Positions 12,585 through 18,529 of a stretch of DNA of 64,000 nt are shown one piece after another. The notes beneath the pieces were generated by a model. The model made no database searches and was not told the DNA's origin. It worked only from the letters and a program-made list of their open reading frames with translations. The DNA is from Pseudaminobacter soli (ex Zhang et al. 2022) (GTDB lineage Bacteria > Pseudomonadota > Alphaproteobacteria > Rhizobiales > Rhizobiaceae), in assembly GCF_014595955.1 (NCBI RefSeq), contig NZ_JABVCF010000009.1:62001-126000 (forward strand). Reading direction: 5' to 3'. The position numbers and the translations under genes are program-made. Within the stretch, counting starts at the first letter, position 1, and the number at the start of each line of letters is the position of its first letter.

Positions 12585-12851
12585 ATGAACGAGGCTGATG
12601 CGCTCGACATCGTCCAGTTCGCCATCTGGACGGTGATCACCGCCTCGGGCCCCGCGGTCGGGGCGGCGATGCTCGTCGGCATCGGCATAGCGCTCGTCCA
12701 GGCGCTCACGCAGATCCAGGAGGTGACCCTCACCTTCGTTCCGAAAATCGTCGCGATCATGGTGGTCATCGCCTTCACCGGGCCCTTCATAGGCGGCCAG
12801 ATCTCCGCCTTCTCCAATGTGATATTCGAGCGCATCCAGACCGGCTTCTGA
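12585..12851 (+). CDS. fliQ: Flagellar export protein FliQ
   Basis: FliQ is a small inner-membrane subunit of the type III flagellar export gate. The 88-residue product has two hydrophobic helices, about residues 15-40 (AIWTVITASGPAVGAAMLVG) and 50-75 (TFVPKIVAIMVVIAFTGPF), and the conserved LVQALTQIQEVTLTFVPK loop. In related genomes flhA follows directly. Here the next export gene is 3.6 kb away, behind a two-component module. Confidence 0.95.
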   Translation: MNEADALDIVQFAIWTVITASGPAVGAAMLVGIGIALVQALTQIQEVTLTFVPKIVAIMVVIAFTGPFIGGQISAFSNVIFERIQTGF

Positions 12852-12902
12852 TCCGGCGAACTCCGTCAAACCGTTCCTCACCATGAGAGGTCTGGTGCCC
12901 TT

Positions 12903-12939
12903 TCGGACCTGAGTCCGACCTAGCCGGACTGCGGTCCGG
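12903..12939. promoter_or_regulatory. Tandem CGGAC-N4-GTCCG palindromes upstream of the secreted repeat protein
   Basis: Two palindromes lie in the 185-base gap after fliQ: TCGGAC-CTGA-GTCCGA (12903-12918) and CCGGAC-TGCG-GTCCGG (12924-12939). Each has perfect 6-bp arms and a 4-base centre. Their centres are 21 bp apart, two helical turns, as expected for a dimeric regulator binding in tandem. The same palindrome recurs at 13541 and at 16338. The local LuxR-type response regulator (14214-14876) is the obvious candidate to bind it, which is an inference. Confidence 0.6.
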
Positions 12940-13036
12940 GATTGGCCGCAATGGTCTCGGCCGGATCGTGTGGGGTATCCGTTCCACCTAACCTCCTCCT
13001 GTTCGCAAGACGCGAATCCTATTTGAGGAGGTACCC

Positions 13037-13504
13037 GTGACTGCAATCTCTCTACACCGCCGGCTGAAGGCGGCCGCGGCACTCGCCGCCCTTGCATTCG
13101 GATTCACTGCGGCTCCGGTTACGCTTGATCTGACCCGCTCGTTCCCCACCCTCGCCGACAATGCAGCCTACGCCCGCAAGGGCGCCGACGATCCGGTCGG
13201 GCACATCCGCAAGGGTCGCGGAAAGGATGACGCTCCCGGCCATATCCGCAAAGGCCGCGGACAGGACGACGCGCCTGGCCACGTCCGCGGTGGCGGCGGA
13301 AAAGATGACGCGCCTGGTGATGACCGCGGCGGCAGGCGGGGTCGCGGCGCCGACGATGGGCCGGGCGATGACCATGGTGGCAAGCATGGGCGTGGTGCCG
13401 ATGACGGTCCAGGCGACGATCATGGCCGAGGCCGCGGACACGATGCCGGCAATGACTCTGGGGACGATCACGGTGGTCGAGGTCGGGGTCGTGGCCGCGA
13501 CTAG
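13037..13504 (+). CDS. Secreted Asp/Gly/Arg-rich repeat protein
   Basis: The 155-residue product starts at GTG behind a strong GAGGAGG (13025-13031). It has a signal peptide with an Ala-rich core (AAAALAALAFGFTAAP) and probable cleavage near residues 40-45 (LADNAAYA). The mature part is almost entirely degenerate 12-16-residue repeats: KGRGKDDAPGHIR, KGRGQDDAPGHVR, GGGGKDDAPGDDR, RGADDGPGDDHGG (twice). It is rich in Asp, Gly, His and Arg with no Cys, so it is probably disordered. Acidic DD pairs could bind Ca2+ or other cations, as an inference. I know no named family for it. A palindromic operator pair lies upstream, which links it to the nearby two-component system. Confidence 0.75.
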   Translation: MTAISLHRRLKAAAALAALAFGFTAAPVTLDLTRSFPTLADNAAYARKGADDPVGHIRKGRGKDDAPGHIRKGRGQDDAPGHVRGGGGKDDAPGDDRGGRRGRGADDGPGDDHGGKHGRGADDGPGDDHGRGRGHDAGNDSGDDHGGRGRGRGRD

Positions 13505-13530
13505 TCAGACGATTTGCCCTGCTCAATCGC

Positions 13531-13566
13531 ATCGAGATCGTCGGACCTTGGTCCGGCGATCTCGAT
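13531..13566. promoter_or_regulatory. 36-bp palindrome containing the CGGAC-N4-GTCCG core
   Basis: The core TCGGAC-CTTG-GTCCGG (13541-13556) sits inside a larger inverted repeat whose 17-base arms (13531-13547 and 13550-13566) match at 16 of 17 positions. It begins 27 bases after the stop of the first secreted repeat protein and ends 25 bases before the start of the second. It may serve both as an operator for the second gene and, as RNA, as a stem-loop ending the first transcript. No T-run follows. Confidence 0.55.
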
Positions 13567-13591
13567 TGTGAGTGGATGTAAGACTTCGCCC

Positions 13592-14206
13592 ATGGAGAAC
13601 AGATTTGTCTTCGGTTGGAGTATCGGTGCGACCCTGACAGCCCGCCGGATGGTCATGCGATCGGCCGCCGTTCTGCTGCGGGTCGCGCTGTGCTCCGTTT
13701 CCTTGATTGGCACGTCGGCCCTCGCCTATTCCCTCCTCCCGCCGTCGATCGCAATTGCCAAGGATGGCGACAGCGGCGGCGGTGGCAACTCGGGCCGCGG
13801 CGGTGGCGGCGGTCATGACAGTGATGGCCGAGACCACGACAACGATGGCGACAGCAGCGGCCATGGCGGTGATGACGGCGGCGACAGCAGCGGCCGCGGC
13901 GGTGGGGGCGACGACCGCGACGACGGCAAGGATCGAGGAGACGACCGCTCCGGCCGTCGTGACGGCGAGAGAAGGGACAGGCGCGACGATAGGATCGTTG
14001 GGCGCTTCCTCGATTCGCTGAAAAGCCGCGGCCAAGTTGTCTGGTCTTCCAACACCAGGAGTTCGATCGAGGTGCGCTATGCGGACGGATGGAGCGAGCG
14101 TGTCAAAGGATCGACCTACTCGCTGACCGATCCCCGGCAAAGAAGCGTCGTCACCCGCCCCGCCCGCAAGTCTGATGTGGAGCGCCTGAAGGCAGCGATC
14201 GACTAA
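13592..14206 (+). CDS. Secreted Gly/Asp-rich protein with conserved C-terminal domain
   Basis: The 204-residue product has an N-terminal membrane or signal segment (VLLRVALCSVSLIGTSALAY, about residues 29-48). A Gly/Asp/Ser/Arg-rich low-complexity stretch runs from about 55 to 130 (GGGGNSGRGGGGGHDSDGRD). A compact C-terminal domain of about 70 residues follows, beginning near IVGRFLDSLKSRGQVVW and containing EVRYADGWSERVKGSTYSL. The start at 13592 lacks a good ribosome site, and in-frame ATGs near 13650 are alternatives. It resembles its upstream neighbour only in the low-complexity part. It is convergent with the response regulator 7 bases away. Function unknown; secretion is inferred. Confidence 0.65.
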   Translation: MENRFVFGWSIGATLTARRMVMRSAAVLLRVALCSVSLIGTSALAYSLLPPSIAIAKDGDSGGGGNSGRGGGGGHDSDGRDHDNDGDSSGHGGDDGGDSSGRGGGGDDRDDGKDRGDDRSGRRDGERRDRRDDRIVGRFLDSLKSRGQVVWSSNTRSSIEVRYADGWSERVKGSTYSLTDPRQRSVVTRPARKSDVERLKAAID

Positions 14207-14213
14207 GCGCGTT

Positions 14214-14876
14214 TTATGACGCCGACTGCTTCCAACTCTCCTTGGCGAGCACGGCGGCTTCCACGCGATTGCGAGCATTGAGCTTCTGCAGGATGCTGGT
14301 CATGTAGTGCTTGACCGTCTTCTCCTGCAGGTCGAGCTTGCGCCCGACTTCCTTGTTGCTCAGCCCCTGAGCGACCAGCTTGAGGATCTGCTCCTCGCGC
14401 GCTGTCAGCGTCGCCAGCGGCGTATTTGTCGGACGAGCCGCGCCAGCCGGGCCGGCTCGCATGCTGACCAGCAGGCGCGCAGCCAGGCCCGGCGACACAT
14501 AGGACTCGCCATTGGCTATGCCCGCCAGAATTCCCGCAAGTTCTTCAGCACTCACCCCCTTCAGAATGTAGCCCTTCGCGCCGGCCTGCAGAGCGCTCAT
14601 GATGTCGTCGTCCGCTTCGGATACCGTAAGCATGGCGATGTTCACGCTGGGCACCGACGCCACAATTTGCCGGGCGGCCTCTACGCCATTGCCTGGCATA
14701 GAGATGTCGAGCATCATCACGTCCGGCTTCAGTTCCCTCGCAAGCCGGACCGCGTCGTCCGCGTTCGATGCTTCCGCGACAACAGAGAAACGGCCATCGT
14801 CGGTCAGCGACTTGACCACCCCGCTGCGATAAAGCGGATGATCGTCGACGACGACCACGGTCTTCGGCTTACTCAT
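14214..14876 (-). CDS. LuxR-type two-component response regulator
   Basis: The 220-residue NarL/FixJ-type regulator has a receiver domain with acidic D11/D12, phosphoacceptor D57 (MMLDISMPG), and the conserved Lys in GYILKGVS. The LuxR HTH is near residues 150-212 (LTAREEQILKLVAQGLSNKE, TVKHYMTSILQKLNARNR). It overlaps the kinase gene by 8 bases on the same strand, so the pair is co-transcribed. It lies between fliQ and flhA, opposite two secreted-protein genes. The recurring palindromes around it are its likely binding sites. It is neither FtcR nor VisN/VisR. Confidence 0.93.
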   Translation of the reverse strand: MSKPKTVVVVDDHPLYRSGVVKSLTDDGRFSVVAEASNADDAVRLARELKPDVMMLDISMPGNGVEAARQIVASVPSVNIAMLTVSEADDDIMSALQAGAKGYILKGVSAEELAGILAGIANGESYVSPGLAARLLVSMRAGPAGAARPTNTPLATLTAREEQILKLVAQGLSNKEVGRKLDLQEKTVKHYMTSILQKLNARNRVEAAVLAKESWKQSAS

Positions 14877-16281
14877 CGTCCCCGTCCCTCAGGTACACCC
14901 GCATCGTCATCGTGACCTCCCCCCCCTCGGGCGCGTCGAAGGAAAATCTGCCGCCCAGGCTCTCGACCCGCTCGCGTAGCCCTGCCAGGCCGAGGCCTGT
15001 ACCGTTCCTCGACGTTTCCCCTCCGTTGGCCGGACCGTTCTGCAGAGAGACGGTCAGGATGTGGCCTTCTATGAACGCTTCGACGCGCTGGCCTACTCCC
15101 GAAGCATGTCGGAAGGCATTGCTCAGCCCTTCCTGGACGAAGCGGAAGACGCAGATCTTCAGCGCCTCGGAAACCGACGCCGTGCTGAGCTCGAGGTGGA
15201 CGGATACTGCGGTCGATGTCAGTCGTTCGTGCGCATGGACCAGCCCGGTGATGATCGTCTCCAGCGACTTGCTCTCGATCTCGGGCAGGGAGAGCCCACC
15301 GCAAATGTCCCGGATTTCGCGCATGGCGTCGTCAAGGGCGCCCTTCACGACCTGCGCCTCCGCCAGCCTCTCCGACTTGCGAGGGGCGCGGGCAATGCCG
15401 GACAGTTTCAGGGCCGCAAGGCTGATCAGTTGCGCCGGACCGTCGTGGAGGTCCGCGCCGACGCGCCGGAGGAAGCGCTCGTTGAGCTCAGCCGCCCGGC
15501 CTGCGGCGCGCTCGACGCGCACGCGCAGTTGCCGGTTCTGTTCCGAGGCTTGGACAGCCTCCACCATGCGATCTCTGAGCGCCTGCCGCTGGTCCTCGAT
15601 GACCCTGCTCGCCCGGTGCACGATCCCGAACAGGGCCGATCCGATCATCAGCATCAGGGCGGCGACCAGCAGCCATGCCTCCACGACCGCTCCCCGCAGC
15701 GTCCCGTGAAGCGCCGTGGCGTCCTCATAGAACTCGGCCACGGCGATGATGCGCCCGGTCCAGACTTCGCGGATCGGGCTATAGACTTCGAGGAGAGGCA
15801 GCCCGGATCTCCTTTCGCCGGCGCTTTCGTCCTCGTCCAGTTCATCCAGTTCCGAAACGATGCTGCCGGCGAACGCCTTCTCCAGACCCGCCGACACCGG
15901 AAAGCGGCGGCCGATCAGGTTCTCGTCTTCGGCATAGGCGATCAGCCCGCCCGGCTTCCAGAGCTTCACGGATATGACGCGCTGGCCGAAGGCGCTGCCT
16001 TCGAGCAATTCCTCCATGGCACGTGTCGGTCCGATCGACAGGACGTCGGCCGTGTCGAGTTCCTGGGCAAGGGGCCCGATGAAACTGTCCATGAAGAGCG
16101 CGGTGGCGCCGGCCGTGTTCGACACCACGCCGCGCGAGATCACGTTCGTCAGCCAATAGCCCGTGACCACCGCCGCAACGATCATCACCACGCTGCCGGT
16201 GAGGGCAAACCGCGTTGAAAGGCTGAGCGAGTCGAGCCGAGCCGATCGTGTCCTGAGGTAATCGGTGAGCGCGATGCCCAT
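14869..16281 (-). CDS. Sensor histidine kinase, NarX/DegS (HisKA_3) type
   Basis: The 470-residue membrane sensor has a first helix near residues 26-48 (FALTGSVVMIVAAVVTGYWL), then a periplasmic domain of about 150 residues. A second helix follows near 201-226 (WLLVAALMLMIGSALFGIVH) and a short coiled coil. The HisKA_3 phosphoacceptor motif is GADLHDGPAQLISLAALKL. The ATPase domain has an N-box (EGLSNAFRHASG) and G-box (GTGLGLAGLRERVESLGG). It overlaps the response regulator. The ligand is unknown; the periplasmic part looks PAS/Cache-like, as an inference. It is divergent from flhA across 160 bases that carry two palindromes. Confidence 0.92.
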   Translation of the reverse strand: MGIALTDYLRTRSARLDSLSLSTRFALTGSVVMIVAAVVTGYWLTNVISRGVVSNTAGATALFMDSFIGPLAQELDTADVLSIGPTRAMEELLEGSAFGQRVISVKLWKPGGLIAYAEDENLIGRRFPVSAGLEKAFAGSIVSELDELDEDESAGERRSGLPLLEVYSPIREVWTGRIIAVAEFYEDATALHGTLRGAVVEAWLLVAALMLMIGSALFGIVHRASRVIEDQRQALRDRMVEAVQASEQNRQLRVRVERAAGRAAELNERFLRRVGADLHDGPAQLISLAALKLSGIARAPRKSERLAEAQVVKGALDDAMREIRDICGGLSLPEIESKSLETIITGLVHAHERLTSTAVSVHLELSTASVSEALKICVFRFVQEGLSNAFRHASGVGQRVEAFIEGHILTVSLQNGPANGGETSRNGTGLGLAGLRERVESLGGRFSFDAPEGGEVTMTMRVYLRDGDDE

Positions 16282-16317
16282 GTTCAGCGCTTACCGACAT
16301 TCGCTGAAACTGACAAT

Positions 16318-16353
16318 TGGACAAGGGTCGGCTGCCATCGGACCAAGGTCCGT
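16318..16353. promoter_or_regulatory. Tandem palindromes between the histidine kinase and flhA
   Basis: A good site, TCGGAC-CAAG-GTCCGT (16338-16353), is preceded by a degenerate one, TGGAC-AAGG-GTCGG (16318-16331). Their centres are again 21 bp apart. They lie 37-72 bases upstream of the kinase start on one side and 89-124 bases upstream of flhA on the other. They could serve autoregulation of the two-component operon, control of flhA, or both. Confidence 0.55.
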
Positions 16354-16441
16354 CTCTCTGCGTTGGCCGGGGATGCCACCCTCGCACAAGCTTGTCCGAC
16401 TAGGCTCCCGGCCCAAAGCGTAGAGCAGGTCGGACCGGCCA

Positions 16442-18529
16442 ATGGCGATTACAGAAACGATATCCCCGAGCACCCCCGCCCGACACAGCCGGGACGTGTT
16501 CTTCGCCCTTGGCATCGTTGTCATCCTGGCGGTGCTGTTCCTGCCGATCCCGGCCTTCATGATCGACCTCGGGCTGGCGATCTCCATCGCCCTGTCTGTG
16601 CTGATCCTGATGGTTGCGCTCTGGATCCAGCGGCCGCTCGACTTCTCTTCCTTCCCGACGATCCTCCTCATCGCCACAATGCTGCGACTGTCGCTGAACA
16701 TCGCGACGACCCGCATGATCCTGTCGCATGGTAGCGAAGGCACGACCGCGGCTGGCTACATCATCAGCGGCTTCTCCCAGTTGGTGATGAGCGGCGACTT
16801 CGTGATCGGCCTGATTGTCTTCCTGATCCTGATCATCGTGAACTTCATCGTGATCACCAAGGGCGCCACCCGTATCGCCGAGGTCGGCGCGCGCTTCACC
16901 CTCGACGCCATCCCCGGCAAGCAGATGTCGATCGACGCCGACCTGTCGGCGGGCGTGATCGACGACAAGACGGCGCAGCTCCGCCGGCGCGAACTGGAGG
17001 AGGAAAGCTCCTTCTTCGGCTCGATGGACGGCGCCTCCAAATTCGTGCGCGGCGATGCCATCGCCGGCCTGATCATCACCGCGATCAACATCATCGGCGG
17101 CATCGCCATCGGCTATTTCCGCCATGGCATGGCCATGGGCGAATCCGCCGACGTCTTCATCAAGCTGTCGGTCGGCGATGGCCTGGTGACACAGATCCCG
17201 GCGCTCATCGTCTCTCTCGCCGCCGGCCTGCTGGTGTCCAAGGGCGGCACGCGGGGCTCCGCCGACCAGGCGGTGTTCGGCCAGCTCGGCGCCTATCCGC
17301 GCGCCCTCTATGTCGCGGCGGGACTGCTGATCCTGCTCGGGCTGATGCCCGGCCTGCCGATGTTCCCCTTCGTCGCTCTGGCCGGCTCGATGGCAGCAAT
17401 CGGCTATGTCATCCCGCTCCGCCGCAAGCAGATGATGGAAGAACAGGCCGAACTCGCCCGCCAGCAGAGCGCCACCAAGGAGGACGAGGAGAAGAATTCG
17501 GTCAAGGCGTCGCTGAAGACCGCCGAGATCGAACTCCTGATCGGCAAGCAGCTGTCGACCAGGCTGCTCGTCTCGCACCAGGAACTTGCCTTCCGCATGG
17601 CGAAAATGCGCAAGAAATTCGCTACGCAGTACGGCTTCGTCGTGCCTGAGGTGAAGCTCACTGACGAGCTCTCGCTGCAGAGCAAAAGCTACCAGATCAA
17701 GATCCACGGTACCGTCGTCGCTGAATATCAGATGCGGGTCGGCGACCTCATGGTACTGCTCGGCCAGCGCGAGCCTCCCGAAATCCCCGGCGCGGAGGTC
17801 CGCGAGCCGGCGTTCGGCATGCGCGCCTACTCCGTCCCGGAAATGTTCGCCGAGGATCTGAAGCGCGAGCAGTTTACCTACGCCGACAACATGTCGGTCC
17901 TGCTCACCCATCTTTCAGAGGTGATCCGCAACAACCTGCCGCAGTTGCTCTCCTACAAGGACATGAAGGCACTGCTGGAACGCCAGGATCCCGAATACCG
18001 GAAGCTGGCGGACGATATCTGCACGGCGCACATCTCCTACCCAGGCCTGCAGGCCGTGCTTAAGCTGCTGCTTGCCGAACGCGTCTCCATCCGCAACCTG
18101 CACCTTATCATCGAGGCCATTGCAGAGATCGCGCCGCATGTGCGCCGCACCGAGCAGATTGTCGAGCATGTGCGGGTCCGCATGGCCCAGCAGATCTGCG
18201 GCGACCTGTCGGAGAGCGGCGTGCTCAAGGTGCTCAGGCTCGGCAACCGCTGGGATCTCGCCTTCCACCAGAGCCTCAAGCGCGATGCCAAGGGAGAGAT
18301 CCGCGAATTCGACATCGACCCGCGCCAGCTCGAGGAATTCGGCCAGGAAGCGACCACCGCGATCCGTGCGCATATGGAAGCCGGCGAGCGCTTCGTGATT
18401 GTCACCGCACCCGATGCCCGGCCCTATGTCCGGATGATCGTGGAACGCCTGTTCCCCACCCTGCCGGTCCTTTCGCATGTCGAAATCGCCAAGGGCGTCG
18501 AGATCCGGATCCTCGGCACGATCTCGTGA
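16442..18529 (+). CDS. flhA: Flagellar export gate protein FlhA
   Basis: FlhA is the large inner-membrane subunit of the flagellar type III export gate. The 695-residue product has about eight membrane helices in residues 20-310, with the FHIPEP-type conserved cytoplasmic loop ([17 protein letters not shown]). Its cytoplasmic domain docks chaperone-substrate complexes (about 340-695). Length and motifs are normal. It overlaps fliR (GTGA). It is separated from fliQ by the two-component module and so needs its own promoter in the 160-base gap shared with the kinase. Confidence 0.96.

Follow-up and report, generated by a model that had tools for sequence, protein, structure and literature searches.

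A kinase, regulator and exported-protein cassette, probably self-regulating and accessory, at the fliQ/flhA seam of a flagellar gene cluster

The interval between the flagellar genes fliQ and flhA (positions 12852-16441) in a 64,000-nucleotide stretch of the Pseudaminobacter soli genome (contig NZ_JABVCF010000009.1, positions 62,001 to 126,000; hereafter the window) holds two genes for exported repeat proteins, SEC1 and SEC2, on the plus strand, followed by convergent genes for a response regulator and a membrane histidine kinase on the minus strand. The kinase, the regulator and SEC2 form an old, co-conserved and widespread cassette, and the fliQ/flhA seam is a permissive insertion point that is occupied by unlike genes in different genomes. 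Our reading, to which we give a probability of about two in three, is that the four genes are a self-regulating accessory cassette inserted in the seam between two flagellar transcription units and that its flagellar neighbourhood is accidental. A preliminary description of this DNA had placed the four genes and their palindromes between fliQ and flhA, and all of them were located by open reading frames (ORFs), Pfam matches and a pattern scan.

Results

Conservation of the cassette

Fifty kinase loci were examined, from which four duplicates (L002, L044, L047 and L061, which equal L075, L006, L012 and L018, respectively) were excluded, leaving 46; three loci added later brought the number to 49. 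Twenty more kinase loci came from a single scan of species genomes. Among the 46 non-redundant loci the regulator was present in 45 and the conserved C-terminal domain of SEC2, SEC2-C, in 25. The arrangement is also conserved: the regulator lies within 600 bp of the kinase and on the kinase strand in 46 of 49 loci, and SEC2 is convergent with the regulator and within 600 bp of it in 27 of the 28 loci that have SEC2, the exception being L057, where SEC2 is on the other side of the kinase. In the genome that contains the window the kinase recurs at 44% identity in a second locus, which likewise encodes a regulator and an exported low-complexity protein. SEC2-C occurs twice in this genome and each time beside this kind of kinase. 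Across this genome and 120 relatives SEC2-C was found in 15 of 121, none of them outside the group of 24 genomes in which the best match to the kinase scores at least 200 bits. Farther out in the class, SEC2-C was found in 4 of 289 genomes at E <= 0.001, with strong matches only in the own genome and G273 and E values of 6e-4 and 8e-4 in the others. Relatives of the kinase were found in 186 plasmid records, many of them rhizobial and agrobacterial replicons.

In the kinase tree, from which L018 was omitted because its kinase is split over two frames (L018 and L078 were also left out of alignment A2), a single clade of 30 rows (100/99, with the bootstrap not settled) takes in the SEC2-linked kinases, and 24 of its rows have SEC2. 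The SEC2 label needs 4 changes on this tree, a value reached by none of 500 shuffles, against a mean of 15.2 for shuffled labels. The window kinase groups with those of L004 and L045 (84/90) and, among the ten SEC2-bearing loci that were compared, it is these two that have a SEC1-like second exported repeat protein just 5' of SEC2 and thus the full set of four genes. Neither cassette is at the fliQ/flhA seam, and their flanking ORFs look non-flagellar by eye. The four genes thus occur as a cassette outside this seam, and the lack of co-conservation that would have spoken against the earlier proposal was not what the comparison showed, although SEC1 is shared by these two relatives only.

SEC2 copies without this kinase next to them are present in L095, L096 and L097. 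The copy at L095:6015-6695, in genome G050, is beside another LuxR-type regulator with an EKTVKNH helix.

Other genes recur near the cassettes. A mini-protein of 30 residues, M[DE]xS[VI]YQARWLLAP..., with one likely membrane span, is encoded near SEC2 at L075:5762-5854 (contig C1 of the own genome), L058, L097 and L102, and in all four loci a GACYNNRGTC site lies 114-139 bp before the YQARWLL motif; the mini-protein was not found in the window cassette. Genes with a VTC domain (polyphosphate polymerase type) are near the cassette at L003:11638-13063, L017:10265-11718 and L098:621-2092 and are accompanied by DUF4956 genes (checked with Pfam in L003 and L098 and by eye in L017). DUF1236 proteins are encoded near or divergent from SEC2 or the kinase, with a palindrome between or before the genes, at L095:4103-4546, L097:4592-5050 and L013:6292-6792, and it is possible that they are further members of the regulon.

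A palindrome before the kinase and exported-protein genes

The palindrome CGGAC-N4-GTCCG occurs four times in the window and all four sites are in this interval (Table 1), in front of the secreted genes and of the kinase as the preliminary description had it. Thirty simulated sequences with the same dinucleotide make-up had 0-2 sites each and 10 in total. The genome as a whole (6.1 Mb) has 19 sites per strand versus 34 for a control pattern, and 4 of the 19 are within these 3.5 kb. Thus, the string is not enriched genome-wide and it is its clustering in the interval that is unusual.

A first count found the palindrome core before the kinase in 22 of 46 loci, at -8 to -237 from the estimated start, and at -47 to -70 in 9 of these 22. 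In a later count GACYWWRGTC was present in 24 of 49 kinase upstreams (300 bp) and in 12 of 31 SEC2 upstreams (the 350 bp before the signal-peptide core), compared to 3.4% and 3.8%, respectively, of random windows drawn from the same loci; with the looser GACYNNRGTC the figures were 26 of 49 and 13 of 31 over backgrounds of 5.0% and 5.5%. The three kinase-unlinked SEC2 genes of L095, L096 and L097 all have GACYNNRGTC upstream, two of them with the WW core and L096 in the looser form only. The GACYWWRGTC core matches the core of the published DosR box, TTSGGGACTWWAGTCCCSAA (PMC2275270), and for OsdR, a DevR relative, another palindrome, AGGGCCGATCGGCCCT, is reported and said to fit the DevR consensus (PMC5069765).

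In the own genome the form GGACYWWRGTCC occurs seven times, three of them at its two cassettes; at the second cassette the site precedes the SEC2 ORF by 342 bp. The idea that the palindrome marks a general regulon here was rejected, the count being 7 versus 5 for the control and the four non-cassette sites (one within an ORF call, in L086, and three outside the ORFs called there) having no common theme.

The regulator and the kinase

The regulator is of the NarL/LuxR type, with a receiver domain (85.9 bits) and a GerE domain (73.4 bits) that are both over the Pfam gathering cut-offs. It is not the nitrate regulator NarL by the NCBIfam equivalog model NF007935 (183.4 bits versus a cut-off of 250), and its best relatives in the PDB are NarL and DevR. 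Its recognition helix reads EKTVKHY versus EKTVKNY in DevR, and EKT[VI]K is found in 43 of 49 regulators; we take these residues to be the ones through which DevR contacts its DNA box. Judging from this helix and from the conservation of the palindromes, the regulator would bind the palindromes.

The kinase has a HisKA_3 dimerisation/phosphoacceptor domain (29.9 bits, cut-off 24), followed in the Pfam results by a HATPase_c match below the cut-off (22.5 versus 26.4 bits, E 1.6e-4). By the NCBIfam cut-offs it is neither UhpB (64.6 versus 408 bits) nor MctS (49.5 versus 700 bits), and no GAF domain is listed for it by Pfam at E <= 0.1. A model of its sensor part (219 residues, mean predicted local distance difference test score (pLDDT) of 94) has two long helices around a mixed alpha/beta domain. 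Foldseek gave 26 matches to it at E <= 0.001, with WalK first and the SpoKinD, CitA, DctB and DcuS sensors among them, at TMt values of at most 0.73, and the periplasmic part is predicted to have a PDC/Cache fold. By sequence Pfam is nearly silent about this part, with sCache_3_2 matching 2 of 44 members (best E 0.003).

Cytochrome c or cytochrome b561 genes adjoin three kinase loci that do not have SEC2 (L012:3518-4438, L014:773-1540 and L016:1125-2645), which hints at a redox-linked signal.

The exported proteins

SEC1 and SEC2 both have N-termini that look like signal peptides by eye, and both have Gly/Asp-rich repeats. Neither has any Pfam match, whereas fliQ, the regulator, the kinase and flhA are all matched. 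When the internal repeats of SEC1 were compared over 71 codon pairs, the differences at first, second and third positions numbered 15, 11 and 42, and by this excess at third positions SEC1 reads as coding in the stated frame. Against SEC1 as a gene, a simple gene caller ranked an antisense ORF above it. That SEC1 and SEC2 are chance ORFs was considered and rejected in view of the third-position bias of SEC1 and the conservation of SEC2-C. The mechanical ORF of SEC2 begins at a TTG at 13514 and its 204 amino acids are counted from the ATG at 13592. In two records of the cassette the SEC2 gene is annotated as a hypothetical protein.

The linkers of SEC2 and its counterparts differ in length and composition (Gly/Asp/Ser, Gly/Asn), and what is conserved among them is SEC2-C alone, about 57 residues with the consensus VRxxDGxxExIxxGRYxMxDxxGRTIxxRxATxxDxxRL. 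Several SEC2 homologues begin with what look by eye like twin-arginine signals of the SRR type. The predicted fold of SEC2-C is helix - five strands - helix (mean pLDDT 91). The window protein matched neither PepSY nor any other Pfam domain, and 25 members gave weak and scattered hits to seven Pfam families (best E 0.0069), the commonest being ULD_2 in 5 of 25 members with E 0.12 at best. The nearest structures were mostly polo-box domains, with a best Foldseek E value against the PDB of 0.06 and, for the top VIA-align rows, Z about 5 at a root mean square deviation of 3.6-3.8 over 58 residues; no match was significant, and the likeness was read as one of common structural arrangements and not as a known fold.

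In a mirror-tree comparison over 27 loci SEC2-C correlated with the sensor at 0.58, with the catalytic part at 0.49 and with the regulator at 0.60, and had a partial correlation with the sensor, given the catalytic part, of 0.37 (0 of 1000 permutations as high). This was not used as support because the regulator correlates as well as the sensor does.

The fliQ/flhA seam in relatives

The interval between fliQ and flhA was surveyed in 32 of the 96 relatives that have an FlhA match. It measures 74-209 bp in 19 of them, 370-627 bp in three and at least 1 kb in ten. This confirms that flhA commonly comes straight after fliQ, as the preliminary description had it for Brucella and Sinorhizobium. In three of the ten relatives with at least 1 kb, G054, G067 and G070, fliQ was not in the first 4 kb; it is about 5.5 kb away in G054 and about 10.6 kb away in G067, and in G070, where it is not within 21 kb of flhA, a rearrangement is as likely as an insertion. 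Within the genus, the seam is an empty gap of 87 bp in G003 and holds an Xre-type antitoxin in G002 and an Xre/ParS antitoxin with a RES toxin in G001. Elsewhere it holds a sigma factor and a YCII protein (G011), an HxlR regulator and an acyl-CoA dehydrogenase (G041), a DUF1176 protein (G035), a beta-lactamase-family hydrolase (G071), an ORF without a Pfam match (G024) or a GNAT acetyltransferase that fills a gap of 627 bp (G010). None of the 120 relatives has the kinase at the seam; FlhA is matched in 96 of them. The comparison suggested in the preliminary description thus shows that no relative shares the cassette at this place and that the seam genes differ between genomes.

The base composition of the interval (64.8% G+C at 12852-16372) matches that of the whole window (63.7%) and therefore has no sign of recent foreign origin. 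The 3'-terminal 51 nucleotides of fliQ align at 86% to those of the same-genus G003.

Elsewhere in the own genome a second, distant FlhA-family protein (G000:C1:169341-171365, 34% identity) is encoded, which is probably the export gate of a type III secretion system.

The promoter-like block of flhA

All 33 genomes examined have a 13-base block, YTCRCRYAAGYTW, at 49-123 bp from the start of flhA, on its upstream side, and the block is absent from 128,414 bp of upstream control sequence, counted with a pattern that was drawn from these same flhA upstreams; it is followed, 6 bases on, by CTAG or a similar sequence in the upstreams inspected by eye. Measurements on either side of the block, made in 30 genomes, put fliQ at 14 to 3529 bp from it while the spacing to flhA stays at 49-123 bp, which places the extra genes on the fliQ side of the block.

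The own genome has exactly two copies of the 13-base pattern. One precedes flhA and the other precedes fliF (YscJ_FliF 4e-53) by 42 bp, the latter copy being at G000:C51:61557 (L104), upstream of the window start. A pair of blocks on one strand, 11.8-16.8 kb apart and one of them that of flhA, was found in at least 12 of 41 genomes including this one; the gene behind the second block was identified, as fliF, in the own genome only. The flhA/fliF block is a candidate for a dedicated flagellar promoter element. Rem is reported as the activator of class II flagellar genes (PMC9812332), and a link between the block and Rem would be a guess.

Table 1. Features of the fliQ-flhA interval and its flanks (positions in the window)
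Feature	Position	Strand	Evidence or remark
fliQ, left boundary of the seam	12585-12851	+	Pfam Bac_export_3, E 4.7e-25
Palindrome CGGAC-N4-GTCCG, predicted regulator site 1 before SEC1	12904-12917		Pattern scan
Palindrome, predicted regulator site 2 before SEC1	12925-12938		Pattern scan
SEC1, exported Asp/Gly/Arg-rich repeat protein, 155 amino acids	13037-13504	+	GTG start after GAGGAGG
Palindrome with GACCTTGGTC core, predicted regulator site before SEC2	13542-13555		Pattern scan, cross-genome recurrence
SEC2, exported Gly/Asp/Ser-rich protein, 204 amino acids, conserved C-terminal domain	13592-14206	+	ATG start
SEC2-C, conserved C-terminal domain of 57 residues	14021-14191	+	Modelled stretch 13988-14203, pLDDT 91
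NarL/LuxR-type response regulator, DevR-like recognition helix EKTVKHY	14214-14876	-	Response_reg 2.7e-24, GerE 1.1e-20
Membrane histidine kinase, HisKA_3 type, predicted PDC/Cache periplasmic sensor	14869-16281	-	HisKA_3 8.6e-07
Palindrome with GACCAAGGTC core, predicted autoregulatory site, 57 bp 5' of the kinase start codon	16339-16352		
flhA promoter-like block CTCGCACAAGCTT-N6-CTAG	16381-16403	+	
flhA, right boundary of the seam	16442-18529	+	Pfam FHIPEP, E 1.1e-233

Discussion

The gene order, the co-conservation of kinase, regulator and SEC2, the recurrence of the palindrome and the intact flhA block are observations, and the circuit that we propose on them is as follows. The cassette would have entered just upstream of flhA's own promoter. 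The kinase would sense a periplasmic signal through its predicted PDC/Cache-type domain and phosphorylate the NarL-type regulator, which would then bind the DosR-like boxes with the GACYWWRGTC core before the kinase, SEC1 and SEC2, as the recurrence of these boxes and the recognition helix suggest, and so raise its own expression and that of SEC1 and SEC2. SEC2 would be exported, its variable linker carrying the one conserved folded domain, SEC2-C, as the putative working part, and may act in the envelope near the kinase as the output of the circuit and possibly as a feedback partner. flhA would be expressed from its own conserved promoter.

Several results weigh against this reading. GACYWWRGTC is absent from 25 of 49 kinase and 19 of 31 SEC2 upstream windows, both sites before SEC1 match GACYNNRGTC and not the WW core, and GGACYWWRGTCC hardly exceeds its control genome-wide. 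SEC1 is co-conserved in two relatives only, 21 of the 46 kinase loci have no SEC2, and some, such as L011, end at the regulator. The flhA block was counted with a pattern taken from the sequences in which it was counted, and the function of SEC2, whether SEC2-C is an envelope output or a feedback partner of the kinase, is a guess. The surroundings of two other cassettes also count here: L045 (in G024) and L058 (in G070) share a contig with flhA, at distances of about 38 and 14 kb, and neither is at the seam; of the matches to genes in the window's first 22 kb, those in G024 begin 29 kb from the cassette and those in G070 stop 10.5 kb short of it. Finally, 28 bp separate the palindrome at 16339 from the flhA block downstream of it, which is within the reach of the regulator, so that some cross-talk is possible. 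The closed circuit with secreted outputs that had been proposed earlier is nevertheless supported, by the co-conservation of kinase, regulator and SEC2, by the full set of four genes in the two nearest relatives and by a palindrome that recurs before kinase and SEC2 genes of other genomes, kinase-unlinked SEC2 copies included; SEC1 is shared by those two relatives only.

The site at 16339 and the two cassettes on flhA contigs are also what favors the view that the circuit controls flagellar export, with the 16339 palindrome serving the divergent kinase and flhA promoters and the state of the envelope tuning flhA. We consider this unlikely because the site is 57 bp before the kinase start and kinase genes that have no flhA neighbor carry it too, the flhA block is as intact here as in 32 relatives without a cassette at the seam, GACYNNRGTC is found in the 250 bp before flhA in only 1 of 32 relatives, and no flagellar regulon emerged, all four palindromes of the window being in this interval. 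The suggested tie of the cassette to flagellar export is not supported, on these grounds and on the absence of the kinase from the seam in all 120 relatives. It is still less probable that the cassette was ancestral at fliQ/flhA and was lost in other lineages. The base composition of the interval would agree with such a history, but the cassette is there in none of the relatives, the same-genus seams are empty or hold the antitoxin and toxin genes described above, and its nearest kin, L004 and L045, are at other places. Least credible of all is that the palindromes are mobile repeats or resemble repetitive extragenic palindromes (REP) instead of being operators: the likeness of the four palindromes, and the position of three of them close to an edge of a single insertion, might suggest this, but the same core precedes kinase genes of 33-49% protein identity and kinase-unlinked SEC2 genes, and the ends of the interval (12852-13036 and 16282-16381) have no 8-mer in common, direct or inverted.

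A different matter is the role of the exported proteins, on which SEC1 and SEC2 could be structural, their disordered, acidic or Asn/Gly-rich chains building a matrix in the envelope or outside the cell, with SEC2-C as the anchor and no feedback on the kinase. This is compatible with the circuit and is a rival only as regards that role. The variation of the linkers around a conserved SEC2-C, the occurrence of SEC2 copies away from this kinase and an alginate-export-family gene that adjoins SEC2 in L003 make it a serious candidate; we nevertheless lean away from it, since SEC2 is convergent with and close to the regulator in 27 of 28 loci and an ordinary structural output need not be. The boldest extension is improbable: SEC2-C would define an undescribed exported family that is controlled by a DosR-like box and supplies feedback partners to Cache-sensor NarL-type kinases across the Rhizobiaceae and related Alphaproteobacteria, and in this genome flhA would have become newly and weakly wired to that envelope circuit by divergent placement.

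A family of two-component systems whose genes go no further, in two annotated records, than the names sensor kinase, regulator and hypothetical protein can now be given a predicted operator, a predicted sensor fold and a co-conserved, putatively exported domain, which makes its regulon searchable and testable. The seam and the flhA/fliF block are a clear example of what lets certain points of a conserved cluster take up insertions. Neither the cassette nor the seam nor the promoter block is described in the titles and abstract openings of the open-licence literature, among the matches listed.

Comparison with known systems

The system resembles those of the NarL/FixJ type (NarL, DevR/DosR, VraR) in its receiver and GerE domains, its HisKA_3 kinase and its palindromic, putative operator, and the recognition helix and the GGAC-type box are closest to those of DevR/DosR. 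A DosR-like helix and a box of the GGGACT-WW-AGTCCC type are both found here, a likeness of motifs. It is unlike the NarL/FixJ types in its predicted periplasmic PDC/Cache sensor, in a regulator and a kinase that score below the full-length NCBIfam cut-offs and in having as its partner an exported protein family without a Pfam match.

The sensor kinase of the DosR/DevR system is of the GAF type and binds heme, unlike the kinase here, which has no GAF match listed and a sensor predicted to be PDC/Cache. In the Cpx system the periplasmic feedback protein CpxP binds and inhibits the sensor domain of the kinase. The cassette is similar in that a small exported protein is apparently induced by its own two-component system, but the regulator here is of the NarL and not the OmpR type, and SEC2-C is by analogy a putative partner of the kinase. 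With CitA, DcuS and WalK the kinase shares the predicted Cache sensor fold and not the kinase class, which is HisKA_3. Like accessory insertions in other flagellar clusters, the cassette adds genes between core flagellar genes; unlike those, a single seam, fliQ/flhA, holds unlike genes in different genomes, and they lie on the fliQ side of the flhA block.

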